DNA from: Smithella sp. ME-1
Lineage (GTDB): Bacteria; Desulfobacterota; Syntrophia; Syntrophales; Smithellaceae
Assembly (NCBI GenBank): GCA_000495415.1
Contig: AWGX01000058.1
Coordinates: 1-10,723 of the forward strand
Direction of reading: 5' to 3'
Length of the DNA stretch: 10,723 nt
Under the pieces are notes generated by a model. It was given only the letters and a program-made list of their open reading frames with translations, was not told where the DNA came from and searched no databases. Shown in pieces: positions 2,293 through 8,074 of the stretch (position 1 is its first letter; each line of letters begins with the position of its first letter). Both the position numbers and the translations under genes were made by a program.

Positions 2293-3336
2293 TCATGTTG
2301 TCGCGGCAAAATAAGATTGAAGTTCGCCGCATAATTCTTCCGGAACGGTCGGGCAAATTATTTCATTGTGTAACTTTTCAAAATAATTCAAATCGCTGGT
2401 TCCCAACGGATTAACCACAAATCGCGGCACAATTTTTCCCTGCACGCAAAAATTACGGTTGTTTGTCATCGTGGCATAGAATGCCATGTTGAAACTTATA
2501 AAATCATTTGCGTGCAAATAGCTGAATACCCTGGATAAGCCTGTCAGAAGTTCGTTGAAGTTAGCTTCCGTTAAATCAAAAAATGATGTTTTTTCCTTAA
2601 ATATAAAATCAATTTCTCCAGCCATGCCTTTTGGCGCAAAACTTGCCAACCAACTGATTGTACCTGTACTGGCAATAAATCTCTCTTTAGCATTTTTCTC
2701 CAAATCAACTAAATTACGCCATAAATTTTCTCCGTTGGTAGCCGCAGCGTAATTTTGGGCGCTGGACAAAAGCCGTTGCATAAAATTAGTGGGTTTATTC
2801 CCGGCAATTGTCTGTAAATGAGGATGAATCAATCCGCCACCGGCAGGCGGCATATAGTTCCAGTTAATTGAACAATATTTAAAACCCAAATTCAATTCAG
2901 CGGCACGATGAAAATAATCACGGCAGACAGCAAAACCATCACGCATTGTATCCGCTGTCAACTTATCCATTCCGAGGAAATGTTGTGAAGATAAAATCGC
3001 TACATTGTTACTTTGATCATAAGGAAAAGCGTTAGGAAACAGACAAGCTTCTCCCCGCCGGAATTTCCCTTCTTTGATAATATTAGGCATAAAATTAGGA
3101 GTTGTCTTTTCAAAAAGACCCGGACAAAAAGGACATAAAGATTCCGGTGATTTTTCCAAATAAAAATCCAAATCGGGTTTTTTAATTGGACGTACCCGGT
3201 AAGGTAAAATACGCGTCGATACACCGGTGATTTCATCATAACGTACTTCAATGGGAAGCTTCTTTTCCTGAAAACCGTTAAAATGATCAAGGTAACAACC
3301 TGTTGTTATTTCCCGCTTAAATCCGATATCTTTCAT
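2293..3336 (-). CDS. GalT-like nucleotidyl transferase of the HIT superfamily
   Basis: This is a 347-residue soluble protein, the usual length of a galactose-1-phosphate uridylyltransferase, and it shows that family's fold markers. An N-terminal RYDEITG segment (32-38) precedes CPFCPG (68-73). The active-site motif HPHLQ (171-175) corresponds to HPHxQ, in which the second His (His173) is the nucleotidylated nucleophile. Cys68, Cys71, His119 and His171 match the four zinc-ligand positions of the E. coli enzyme. Overall similarity outside these motifs seems low and no Leloir-pathway genes are nearby, so the substrate is unknown; it could use another sugar phosphate or nucleotide, as ADP-glucose phosphorylases do. 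It is the last gene of the selD unit, 35 bases after the DHH gene. A good ribosome site, GGAAAGGA, precedes the ATG by 6 bases. Confidence 0.8.
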   Translation of the reverse strand: MKDIGFKREITTGCYLDHFNGFQEKKLPIEVRYDEITGVSTRILPYRVRPIKKPDLDFYLEKSPESLCPFCPGLFEKTTPNFMPNIIKEGKFRRGEACLFPNAFPYDQSNNVAILSSQHFLGMDKLTADTMRDGFAVCRDYFHRAAELNLGFKYCSINWNYMPPAGGGLIHPHLQTIAGNKPTNFMQRLLSSAQNYAAATNGENLWRNLVDLEKNAKERFIASTGTISWLASFAPKGMAGEIDFIFKEKTSFFDLTEANFNELLTGLSRVFSYLHANDFISFNMAFYATMTNNRNFCVQGKIVPRFVVNPLGTSDLNYFEKLHNEIICPTVPEELCGELQSYFAATT

Positions 3337-3371: not shown

Positions 3372-4412
3372 TCATCTGACAGTATCATATTTTTGGTCCC
3401 TTTTTAGACTCTGAAAAAGAAACCGGTCAACATTTTGTTGAGATAAATCGCTACTTAATTTTTCATTTAATACTTCCAGAGAAATTTCCATTCGTGCGGC
3501 GCTTCGATGTCCGCCTCCTTTGCCGATTAAACCAAAAGCTCTTTGCGCAATTGCACCGCAATCATGTCTATAACCGTCGCCGCGAAAAATAATGATGAAT
3601 TTGTCATCGACGATTCCGGCTACAACAACGTAGTATGTGCCGATCAGGCGCAAATAAAAATCAGCTATCTGAACGCAAACGTCAGCACTTTCCACATTTC
3701 CCAGAAAACAAACCCGTTGATCGCGAAAACGATGCATATGGTGATAAGCATGATTATAATATTTTAAAAAACTTTCCGGTGTCTGATTAAGCTCAATGCG
3801 ACGGATGAACCGCAGGTTGGCGTATTTTGTGTGATAGGTGTAAGCGCTGATATCCTCAAAAACAGTATCACGATCAAAATTATTAGTGTCCGTCTTGATG
3901 CCATAAAGCAGAGCTGTATGTAAATTACGCGGAATTTTCACACGGGCACAAAGTAAATATTCAGTTAAGACGCTGGATAAGGCGCCATACTCAGGCCGGA
4001 TATCTTCCACCTGCGCCTGCCACTGGCCTTCACGCGGATGATGATCAAAAACAATATGCGGTTTTATGAAGTTTAACTTATCGCTAAGGAAAGAAGGTTG
4101 AGCGTCCAAAAATGCAATCAAACGGTAAGAATTTAAATCAACTTTATCAAGCAAGTGAATATGTAAACGCATGGACGAAACAAATTCAATATTCTGCCGC
4201 CTGATTAATGGCTCTGTAGAAACGAAAACACTTCTAGCCAGACCTGTGGTCTGCTGAAGTATTTCACGTAACGCCATAGCCGAGGCGATGGCATCGGGAT
4301 CAGGACTGCCGTACATTAGCAAAACCAACGAATCGTCAGGCTGAAACATCTCCATAAGCTTTTGGAAATTAAATTCTGTTTCTTTTTTGATCGAAATGGA
4401 CTTTATTTTCAT
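3372..4412 (-). CDS. DHH-DHHA1 phosphoesterase, NrnA-like
   Basis: This 346-residue cytoplasmic protein belongs to the DHH phosphoesterase superfamily (NrnA, RecJ), whose members hydrolyse short oligonucleotides, cyclic dinucleotides, pAp or polyphosphate with Mn2+. Visible motifs are PDPDA (37-41), Asp103 (FLDAQ), the signature DHH (123-125, in FDHHPRE), Asp175 (GIKTDT) and the DHHA1 motif GGGH (299-302). The His that normally precedes motif I is absent: the sequence is YGSPDPDA where NrnA-type proteins have an HxxPDxDA-like arrangement. One metal ligand may therefore differ and the exact activity is uncertain. It is the middle gene of a three-gene unit, 34 bases after selD. Its own ribosome site is poor; the nearest GGAGG (4445-4441) overlaps the end of selD and is 28 bases away, so translational coupling to selD is likely. 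Confidence 0.85.
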   Translation of the reverse strand: MKIKSISIKKETEFNFQKLMEMFQPDDSLVLLMYGSPDPDAIASAMALREILQQTTGLARSVFVSTEPLIRRQNIEFVSSMRLHIHLLDKVDLNSYRLIAFLDAQPSFLSDKLNFIKPHIVFDHHPREGQWQAQVEDIRPEYGALSSVLTEYLLCARVKIPRNLHTALLYGIKTDTNNFDRDTVFEDISAYTYHTKYANLRFIRRIELNQTPESFLKYYNHAYHHMHRFRDQRVCFLGNVESADVCVQIADFYLRLIGTYYVVVAGIVDDKFIIIFRGDGYRHDCGAIAQRAFGLIGKGGGHRSAARMEISLEVLNEKLSSDLSQQNVDRFLFQSLKRDQKYDTVR

Positions 4413-4446: not shown

Positions 4447-5499
4447 TTAATAAACAAATATTTTGCCGGGATGATCTTTAACAACTTCACCGACAATAGC
4501 GGCATCACCGATTCCGGAACGACACATTTTTTTCACAAGATTTTGCGCTTCATCGCCGGGAAGACTGAAAAACAATCCTCCCGCAGTCTGTGGATCAAAA
4601 AGAACATCAAAAATCCACTCCGGGCAGGTCTTTTCTTTTTCGACTTGACTGATGCGAAAATTTTTATTGCGGTAAAGGCCGCCGGGAACAAAACCTGTTT
4701 CCATTAATTCACGTACACCGCGAAAAACCGGTATGGCCGAAGAATTGATACGCAGGCCGACATGGTCGCCCTCAATCATCTCACAGGCATGTCCAAAAAA
4801 ACCGAAGCCGGTGATGTCCGTACAGGAGTGAATGCCACCTGCAGCAATCATCAATTCCGATGCTTTCTTATTTAGCATGGTCATGGAATTAATCACCTGT
4901 TTTATTTGTTCGTCAGATGCTTCCCCGGCTTTAATAGCAGTACTGATAATTCCCGTTCCCAGGGGCTTTGTTAAAATTAATTTATCGCCAATATTCGCGC
5001 CGCGATTAAACAATACCTTATCAGGATGAACGACTCCTGTTACGGAAAGGCCATATTTGATTTCGTTATCTTCAACGCTATGTCCGCCTATAAGCAAAAC
5101 TCCGGCTTCGCGCATTTTATCCAATCCCCCGCGCAGTACTTCTTTGAGCACCGATTTATCCATTGTTTTGACCGGAAAACATACAATATTCAGAGCAGTG
5201 AGCGGTTTGGCACCCATGGCATAAATATCATTGAGCGCATTAACTGCGGCAATCTGACCAAACGTAAACGGATCATCAACCGTAGGTGTAAAAAAATCGA
5301 CAGTTTGAACAAGAGCCAAATCACCGGAAATTTTATACACTCCCGCGTCTTCCGCGTGTTCAAATCCGCTTAGCAAATTCGGATCTTGAATGAGCGGCAA
5401 ATCGCGCATGATTTCGGATAAGTCCGCCGGACCTATCTTACAGGCTCAACCCGCGCTCTGAACCGTCTGAGTTAAGCGAACAATCTTTTTTTCTTTCAT
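4447..5499 (-). CDS. selD: selenide, water dikinase (selenophosphate synthetase), selenocysteine-containing
   Basis: SelD makes selenophosphate from selenide and ATP, the selenium donor for selenocysteine and selenouridine. The longest stop-free ATG ORF begins at 5409 and lacks the active-site N-terminus. Upstream the frame continues to ATG 5499 through one TGA (5446-5448), giving QSAGUACKIGP with Sec18. This matches the Cys/Sec and Lys of the family motif (Cys17 and Lys20 in E. coli; Sec18 and Lys21 here). Read through, the protein is 350 residues, close to the 347 of E. coli SelD. Further family motifs are QTVDFFTPTVDDPF (metal-binding Asp68), NALNDIYAMG (87-96) and GGHS. ATG 5499 has a ribosome site (AAGAGGAA, spacer about 5), and the promoter at 5552-5580 suits only this start. 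It heads a unit with the DHH and GalT-like genes. Confidence 0.93.
5417..5437 (-). promoter_or_regulatory. bacterial SECIS element for the selD UGA codon
   Basis: In the - strand RNA, GATAGGTCC (5437-5429) pairs with GGACTTATC (5425-5417) over nine base pairs, one of them G-U, leaving a 3-base loop GGC. Seventeen bases separate the TGA (5448-5446) from the loop, and the loop begins with G. Both agree with the known loose bacterial SECIS pattern, in which the element lies inside the coding region just after UGA and is bound by SelB. Confidence 0.8.
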
Positions 5500-5551
5500 T
5501 ATTTCCTCTTTATAAAAACTACCTTTAGAAGTTAGGAAGTTAATTGTGCAA

Positions 5552-5580
5552 AGTATAAGAATAACGGGTTATCATGTCAA
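5552..5580 (-). promoter_or_regulatory. sigma-70-type promoter of the selD unit
   Basis: On the - strand, TTGACA (5580-5575), a 17-base spacer and TATACT (5557-5552, five of six consensus bases) place the start near 5545, about 45 bases before ATG 5499. The spacer contains a 12-base inverted repeat, ATAAC/GTTAT around two bases (5561-5572), which may be an operator. Confidence 0.7.
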
Positions 5581-6542: not shown

Positions 6543-6583
6543 ATATAATTGATTTTATTTCATCGAAACAAAATCAATTATAT
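6543..6583 (-). terminator. hairpin at the end of the PFK-2/FBPase-2 gene
   Basis: The arms at 6543-6556 and 6570-6583 pair perfectly over 14 bp. The 13-base loop can extend the stem by four more pairs (TTTC/GAAA) beyond an A/C mismatch. The hairpin overlaps the stop codon (6574-6576). The stem is AT-rich and no strong T run follows on the - strand, so it may be a weak terminator or an mRNA 3'-end stabiliser. Confidence 0.5.
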
Positions 6584-7788
6584 CGTTTGAGTTCAAAAAG
6601 TTTTTTATAATGGGTTGAAGCAATATGATAAAAACGATCCTGTGGAACGTAAATATAGGGCACATCATCTTTTCTCCGGTAAAGAAAATGAGACAGAATC
6701 ATTCTATTGACTGCCTGATGTCCGACAATCATAATATTCTCCATTTGCTGGTTCAGAAAAAACGATTTTTTGATTCCCTGTGTTATCCGGCTTTTCATTG
6801 TTTCATAACTTTCACCTTCCGGATAGACATAATGATACTTATCTGCTCCTCGCTTTTTGAATACCTGCGGAAGCTTTCGCTCAATTTCCTCATAAGTCAT
6901 TCTTTCGCAGATTCCCGCGTTGATTTCATCAAACTCCTTGAGAGAAATAACCTTACAATTATCCTGCATTGCGCTAATGGCTTTGGCCGTATCGATGGTT
7001 CTGATTTTCGCGCTGGTAAATATATAAGAAATTTTCTTTTTTATAAAAAATGTTCCGAGGGCAGCCGCTTGTTTTTTGCCCTTTTCTGTTAATTTCGAAT
7101 CGCCACCTATGCGATTCTCAATGTTATACTCTGTTTCGGTGTGACGAATAAGAATAAGATTCCTCACTTCATCAGTTACCAGATAGTCGCGCAGACGCTC
7201 ATAAAAAGGAATTACGTCGCTGTGCTTTTCTTCTATAATCATGTTTTGCAGAGAATCTACACGAAGATAATTTCGTTCCACCTTCAATGGCACATAAATC
7301 ATCTTATAATAGTCAATTCTTTTTAGAAATTCTTTTGTCGCCTTATCTTTCAGATGAGAGAATTCGGGAAGTTTGATTTTTTCCTGGATGCTCAAATTCA
7401 GAATATCTTCCTCATTGTTAATACATTCGATGAAAAGAATCGGATGATCATCCAACTGTTTTTCAATTGTTGCACGTCGCTTTCTTCTGGCGTTGTTCGC
7501 ATCTAAAATCGCGATAACACCACTGTTTCGCAAATAAGCTTTTGCCTTTCCCATGTTAATGTGGGCAAATTTTTCTCTTAAAGCCATAGCTGCAGAATTT
7601 TCAGGAGAATAGAATTCGGAACAAGCTGTTTCCTGCAACGGCAAATAAATCCTGCGCAATTCTCCATTATTGAATATGCGGGTGGGAATACCATCCCTTC
7701 GAAAGGCATCCCGGAGACGAACGGCTAGGGTGGATTTACCACGGGCGGGTAGTCCCATCAAAACAATATACAACTTTTCGTCGCTCAT
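6574..7788 (-). CDS. bifunctional 6-phosphofructo-2-kinase/fructose-2,6-bisphosphatase
   Basis: This 404-residue cytoplasmic protein has the architecture of the eukaryotic PFKFB enzymes, which make and destroy the glycolytic regulator fructose 2,6-bisphosphate. The N-terminal kinase (about 1-205) has a Walker A motif GLPARGKS (12-19), FNNGELRR (39-46), which resembles FNVGEYRR, and LDANNARR (95-102), which resembles the DATNTTR motif. The C-terminal histidine-phosphatase domain (about 210-404) has the nucleophile His215 in LIRHTETEYN, RIGGDSKLT (226-234), Arg263 in TSAKIRT, Glu288 in FDEINAG, YPEGESYE (322-329) and His357 in VGHQAV. All of these match PFKFB positions, so both activities look intact. 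The eukaryotic N- and C-terminal regulatory extensions are missing. Proof of the substrate is lacking; a different phosphosugar or nucleoside is possible. It follows mop by 76 bases with a hairpin between. The ribosome site is GGGGA before the ATG. Confidence 0.88.
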   Translation of the reverse strand: MSDEKLYIVLMGLPARGKSTLAVRLRDAFRRDGIPTRIFNNGELRRIYLPLQETACSEFYSPENSAAMALREKFAHINMGKAKAYLRNSGVIAILDANNARRKRRATIEKQLDDHPILFIECINNEEDILNLSIQEKIKLPEFSHLKDKATKEFLKRIDYYKMIYVPLKVERNYLRVDSLQNMIIEEKHSDVIPFYERLRDYLVTDEVRNLILIRHTETEYNIENRIGGDSKLTEKGKKQAAALGTFFIKKKISYIFTSAKIRTIDTAKAISAMQDNCKVISLKEFDEINAGICERMTYEEIERKLPQVFKKRGADKYHYVYPEGESYETMKSRITQGIKKSFFLNQQMENIMIVGHQAVNRMILSHFLYRRKDDVPYIYVPQDRFYHIASTHYKKLFELKRYN

Positions 7789-7864: not shown

Positions 7865-8074
7865 TTAATCAACAGCAATCATCACATTGGAAGCTTTCAC
7901 AATAGCATAAGCTTTTTTGCCCGGTTTCAAACCAAGCTTTTTCGCCGATTCCCTGGAAATCATCGAAACAACCTTGGCTCCGCCTGTCAGTTCTAGAAGT
8001 ATTTCTGTATTTACAGCACCCTCTGAAACCTTGATTACCTTTCCCTTTAAAATGTTGCGCGCACTTATCTTCAT
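7865..8074 (-). CDS. mop: molybdate/molybdopterin-binding Mop (molbindin, TOBE-domain) protein
   Basis: This 69-residue protein is a single Mop/TOBE domain, the length of the Clostridium molbindins, which assemble into hexamers that bind molybdate or tungstate oxyanions. Its family pattern is clear: SARNILKGKVIKVSEGAVN at the N-terminus, TEILLELTGGAKVVSMIS, then the ESAKKLGLKPGKKAYAIVKASNVMI segment. There is no ABC-ATPase or DNA-binding domain, so it is a free storage or buffering protein, not ModC or ModE. It has an excellent ribosome site (AAAGGAGG, spacer 5) and a full-consensus promoter at 8139-8167, suggesting strong expression. The PFK-2/FBPase-2 gene lies downstream across the hairpin at 7801-7836. 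The substrate oxyanion cannot be told from the sequence. Confidence 0.93.
   Translation of the reverse strand: MKISARNILKGKVIKVSEGAVNTEILLELTGGAKVVSMISRESAKKLGLKPGKKAYAIVKASNVMIAVD

Follow-up and report, generated by a model that had tools for sequence, protein, structure and literature searches.

An in-frame UGA with a conserved downstream hairpin in the selD gene of Smithella sp. ME-1 supports a selenocysteine-containing selenophosphate synthetase

The selD locus of Smithella sp. ME-1

We analysed a window of 10,723 nt, taken from contig AWGX01000058.1 of Smithella sp. ME-1 (GCA_000495415.1), which carries a gene for selenophosphate synthetase (selD) at the head of a run of three genes on the minus strand. 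The features of the locus, with positions counted in the window, are as follows.

5552..5580, minus strand: promoter-like TTGACA-17-TATACT, a consensus match only
5505..5509, minus strand: AGAGG, a likely ribosome-binding site 5 nt before the ATG at 5499, found by eye from the sequence
5497..5499, minus strand: ATG start codon of selD, placed from the sequence; the residues that follow are conserved among relatives while their synonymous codons vary
4447..5499, minus strand: selD, selenophosphate synthetase, 350 residues with selenocysteine (Sec) read at residue 18; assigned by TIGR00476, Pfam AIRS and AIRS_C, and the PDB chains 2yye_A and 3u0o_A
5446..5448, minus strand: in-frame TGA read as Sec18; of 50 loci that extend to this codon, 49 have TGA and one has TGT, and the residue aligns with Cys in two solved SelD chains
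5417..5437, minus strand: bacterial SECIS hairpin; conserved core formed by columns 15-19 and 25-29 of alignment A1 (5434-5430 and 5424-5420 in the window), with the loop CGGCG
5407..5409, minus strand: ATG codon for residue 31, at which the table-11 open reading frame and most of the 120 listed database proteins begin; judged an artefact
3372..4412, minus strand: DHH-family phosphoesterase (Pfam DHH, 29.3 bits against a cut-off of 28.1)
2293..3336, minus strand: protein with an HPHLQ motif, third gene of the selD run, in the same conserved position

Under translation table 11, the open reading frame for selD is 5409..4447 on the minus strand and encodes 320 residues; as an earlier note on this DNA had pointed out, such a stop-to-stop call begins the gene at 5409 and loses the active site. 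Translation confirmed the note's further claim that the frame runs on to the ATG at 5499 through one TGA. With this TGA read as Sec, the frame is 5499..4447 and encodes 350 residues, with its single TGA at residue 18 followed by Ala19, Cys20 and Lys21. The read-through product matches the NCBIfam selD model TIGR00476 at 390.1 bits (cut-off 125, residues 8-317), and Pfam AIRS and AIRS_C at 98.9 and 77.7 bits, respectively. Aligned to 2yye_A and 3u0o_A, the product has residue 18 opposite a Cys and residue 21 opposite a Lys, which we take to be the catalytic residues of these chains, and this agrees with the proposal that Sec stands where the family has its catalytic Cys or Sec.

A ribosome site and a promoter had both been put forward as fitting the upstream start. 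The AGAGG motif does so by eye, but the promoter scan returned three promoter-like sites against 2.7 expected in shuffles; since such hits are no more frequent than in shuffled sequence, the TTGACA-17-TATACT match proves nothing about a promoter.

Conservation of the in-frame TGA

A scan of genome contigs with SelD gave 52 loci, mostly from Smithella, Syntrophaceae and other Deltaproteobacteria, with some from Chloroflexota and other groups. The Sec site is TGA in 49 of these and TGT (Cys) in one (L049), and two loci (L025 and L037) are cut off before the site. The 49 TGA-bearing loci extend down to 42% identity to the window SelD. Searches of the genomes behind 49 loci (all but L025, L037 and L043) located SelD at 55 places with E up to 1e-30; 54 of these contain exactly one TGA, the exception being the Cys-type gene of genome G046.

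We extended the survey to two further samples. In 149 genomes from the class of the near relative G003, SelD is found in 133 genomes at 138 places, 134 with exactly one TGA and four with none. The four places that lack a TGA start at profile position 43 or later: inspection of the stretches from G162, G124 and G119 showed that a contig edge cuts each gene at a point beyond the Sec site, and in the fourth, G154, the match starts at base 2 of its contig. All SelD places of this sample that extend to the site are of the Sec type (134/134). The order of G046 has SelD in 42 of 116 genomes, with one TGA at 17 places and none at 25, and therefore both Sec and non-TGA types of SelD occur elsewhere. 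A plasmid search returned SelD relatives, all of them under 60% identity.

The sequence Sec18, Cys20, Lys21 singled out in the earlier note is present in this protein, but Cys20 is no constant of the family. Its position is Ala or Ser in L040-L044, L046, L047, L050 and several of L122-L137, all of which are of the Sec type, and the second Cys seems to be dispensable in SelD.

A hairpin downstream of the TGA

The hairpin GAUAGGUCC-GGC-GGACUUAUC at 5437-5417 has 9 bp, including one G-U pair, and a loop that starts with G at a distance of 17 nt from the UGA, as had been described. The same stretch can also be drawn as 8 bp with the 5-nt loop CGGCG, 16 nt from the UGA, and it reads better in this form because the ninth pair is present in half of the distinct sequences (36 of 72). 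The model of the bacterial SECIS (bSECIS), as given in PMC13188914, has an apical loop of 3-9 nt, an upper stem of 4-16 bp, a G in one of the first two loop positions, a spacing of 16-37 nt and a minimum free energy of at most -7.5 kcal/mol. All of these published constraints hold here, with a loop of 3 or 5 nt, a stem of 9 or 8 bp, the G present, a spacing of 17 or 16 nt and an energy of -11.0 kcal/mol in a 45-nt stretch, so the claim of a known bacterial SECIS geometry stands by this model, with the spacing at the short end of the consensus (16-17 of 16-37 nt). Rfam at gathering thresholds gave no match in the window, and a family-based SECIS call was therefore impossible.

Taken alone, the hairpin is not rare. 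In the window, 8 of 390 TGA trinucleotides are followed in SECIS geometry by a helix of 9 bp or more, as are 122 of 11,500 TGAs in 24 related loci (homologous sites included), so that 1-2% of TGAs match. Folding z-scores were -0.57, -1.07 and -2.80 for stretches of 57, 45 and 71 nt, weak for all but the longest. The weight of the hairpin comes from its conservation. We aligned the Sec sites of 100 sequences, which reduce to 72 distinct ones and align without gaps, with 30 loci drawn from the 138 class-sample places and 30 (29 new) from the 42 places in the order of G046. Across the 72 distinct sequences, 91.9% of the cells of the five inner pairs are paired and ten cells are changed on both sides; none of 500 shuffles, which keep relatedness in, reached either value. 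The number of pairs changed on both sides (two of the inner five) is not unusual, being reached by 94 of 500 shuffles, and in a second hairpin test this count was reached by 54 of 500. When the partners were slid, pairing of the inner five fell to at most 52%. Pair 18:26 is U-A in 59 of the 72 sequences, G-C in five, A-U in one, G-U in one and unpaired in six, while pair 16:28 is G-C in 65, G-U in four and A-U in three. The three outermost pairs form in 28, 25 and 61 of the 72. On the evidence of this alignment, the core of the hairpin is conserved with some compensatory changes, and the two outermost pairs are not conserved.

Synonymous variation was compared in 126 six-codon windows across 50 sequences, excluding the truncated L025 and L037 and the Cys-type L049. 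It is lowest at codons 21-29 (windows from codons 23, 21, 24 and 22), and the codon for Pro24 is CCG in 49 of the 50 sequences. Among the 27 nearest sequences, the lowest values lie at codons 50-59 and 31-38 and not at the hairpin. Folding energy after Sec codons was -10.64 kcal/mol against -8.43 kcal/mol after Cys codons (one-sided p = 0.033, uncorrected for relatedness), a comparison of 100 Sec sequences (72 distinct) with 10 Cys sequences, one gene being counted twice, to which we give no weight. The ten Cys sequences were those found by our search motif, which missed many of the 25 non-TGA places in the order of G046. It also missed the TGA locus L136, which has the TGA and a GGGC/GUUC core able to pair.

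Selenocysteine machinery in related genomes

Both selA and selB score over their cut-offs in 40 of the 49 relatives' genomes, and nine lack one or the other; taken singly, selB is over the cut-off in 44 and selA in 42. A tRNA-Sec is over its cut-off in 45 of the 49, a cut-off also passed by 5 of 14 controls. ARAGORN called tRNA-Sec with anticodon TCA in all eight loci given to it, including those of six near genomes (G001, G002, G003, G005, G007 and G008), and found no tRNA in the 10,723-nt window. There was no selA match in the two nearest genomes, G001 and G002 (90% identity), and no selB over the cut-off in G001, which is only 1.6 Mb. Neither selA nor selB is over the cut-off in G046, the only genome with a Cys-type SelD. 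The earlier note had named a genome without selA, selB and selC as a case against its reading; among the relatives, most carry these genes, with the two nearest giving no selA match. From what is known of the family, the host genome would itself be expected to carry selA, selB and selC.

Matches to the formate dehydrogenase family Fdh-alpha with one in-frame TGA are present in 11 of 13 near genomes, ten of them over the family cut-off; not among them are G001, which gave no match, and G003. The 2-selenouridine synthase family was found in none of the 13 (E up to 1e-20), and selenophosphate in these genomes may therefore serve selenoproteins alone.

Reading of the in-frame TGA

Were the TGA a real stop, selD would be translated from Met31 as a protein of 320 residues without the active-site loop. 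An open table-11 frame for such a product exists, and the 120 database SelD proteins among the matches listed have 315-324 residues (320 in 111 of them), start near residue 31 without the catalytic residue, and all lack the active-site motif in their first 60 residues. Codon 31 itself argues against this start, being ATG in 12 of 49 relatives, TTG in another 12, and neither ATG, GTG nor TTG in 25 (CTG in nine of these), and by eye there is no ribosome-binding site before it. Moreover, conservation at the protein level extends over the 17 codons that precede the TGA: in all 27 sequences of at least 70% identity, Thr, Val and Ala stand unchanged at codons 12, 13 and 16, with four synonymous codons used at each, and codon 10 keeps Thr in 25 of the 27 with all four synonymous codons used. 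Over codons 1-17, the window selD differs from L001 by four synonymous codons and one non-synonymous codon, and by these comparisons of sequence we read the stretch as coding. The earlier note had named relatives with an ordinary stop here and a start at 5409 as the case that would count against it; with ATG in only those 12 of 49 at codon 31, and with the stop recorded at the Sec site being TGA wherever one is recorded and never TAA or TAG, the relatives do not show this. We consider translation from Met31 very improbable. The short database proteins are a systematic misannotation, and the gene model given here corrects one in which 120 relatives among the matches listed are all without the catalytic loop.

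A nonsense mutation or sequencing error in a Cys-type selD would need a single base change, as TGA is one base from TGC or TGT, but this TGA is shared by 49 loci that represent several phyla and many separate assemblies, and it recurs in the two further genome samples, with a conserved RNA downstream; the chance that the gene is broken in this way is vanishingly small. UGA reassignment is known, and it counts for a reading in which the codon specifies another residue, whether Trp by reassignment or through non-specific read-through. For the latter there is also a proposal of non-Sec read-through of SPS1-UGA in hymenopterans (PMC4561486). The other named genes of the window nevertheless gain only 3-22 residues when TGA is read as a residue, as if TGA normally stops, the position in SelD is the catalytic Cys/Sec site, and Sec machinery is present in most relatives, all of which makes a residue other than Sec highly unlikely. 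As a search for other in-frame TGA genes in the window, this reading gave only those small gains, which look fortuitous.

SelD as a selenoprotein

The observation of an in-frame UGA with a hairpin in selD is confirmed, and the reading of SelD as a selenoprotein is supported; the window almost certainly carries a functional selD whose product itself has Sec at residue 18. What is observed directly is the frame, its homology, the conserved TGA, the conserved core of the hairpin and the machinery in most relatives. From knowledge of the family, SelB would bind the hairpin just after the UGA and deliver Sec-tRNA(Sec), and the ribosome would insert Sec at residue 18, the catalytic position in what is probably a flexible N-terminal loop. 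The enzyme would then be expected to make selenophosphate from selenide and ATP, which SelA would use in forming more Sec-tRNA(Sec).

Two solved SelD structures place the window protein. The best-scoring solved relative is 2yye (252.5 bits), which, with 2zod, we take to be SelD of Aquifex aeolicus; it has the same catalytic position, and the crystallised chain has Cys there and Ala where the window SelD has Cys20. The other, 3u0o, presumably SelD of E. coli, is homologous over residues 5-348, with its Cys and Lys aligned with residues 18 and 21, but it has Cys and not Sec and needs no SECIS. Syntrophus aciditrophicus we take to belong to the same order as Smithella and to a related anaerobic syntrophic lineage. 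A 2006 list of the selenoproteins of this species includes SelD (PMC1794560, Table 3), which upholds the statement that Sec-type SelD is known in other bacteria; by that list, the species has the same enzyme with Sec, and the window gene is a new individual gene. According to PMC4561486, Sec is encoded by 19% of the SelD genes of a reference set, its position never varying, and the bacterial SECIS elements of these Sec-type genes were recovered with RNAz. Our literature search, which covered open-licence papers, found no paper joining Smithella and selenocysteine. The window SelD is an ordinary example of a well-known selenoprotein family, although the individual gene is new, and to the known pattern, in which anaerobic Deltaproteobacteria have SelD of the Sec type, it adds a sample where this form looks fixed.

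Neighbouring genes

The genes for the DHH-family phosphoesterase and the HPHLQ-motif protein lie beside selD in all 28 loci at or above 74% SelD identity and in none of the 24 other loci, some of which are short. Judging from the spacing, the DHH gene is probably cotranscribed with selD. The HPHLQ-motif protein matches nothing in Pfam or NCBIfam at E 0.001 (DUF4931_C appears at E 0.07 only), and we take it to be HIT/GalT-like. The run of selD, DHH and HPHLQ genes is a clade-specific gene order, and a link of this order to selenium is only a guess.

That an enzyme should need its own product for its own synthesis is a known curiosity of the SelD family. With the Sec form at 134/134 places in the class sample, new SelD would be made there only with selenophosphate from existing SelD, and one can imagine a closed loop that acts as a bistable selenium memory, with the DHH and HIT-like genes as unrecognised selenium partners. 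We regard this extension of the selenoprotein reading as unlikely.

Elsewhere in the window, a 178-residue protein with the HExxH motif HELIH is encoded at 129-665 on the plus strand and reaches no family cut-off; a MutH match at E 0.0039 falls short. This gene and that for an FmdB-type zinc ribbon (649-966) lie near selD in many Smithella-like loci. A TOBE-domain protein of the molybdenum-binding type, with 69 residues, is encoded at 7866-8074 on the minus strand and is too short for the length limit of the ORF list; a Cys-rich ORF of 143 residues that the list gives in another frame of the same stretch looks spurious. At 6574-7788 on the minus strand lies a gene whose product combines a 6-phosphofructo-2-kinase domain with a histidine phosphatase domain, an arrangement typical of eukaryotes.
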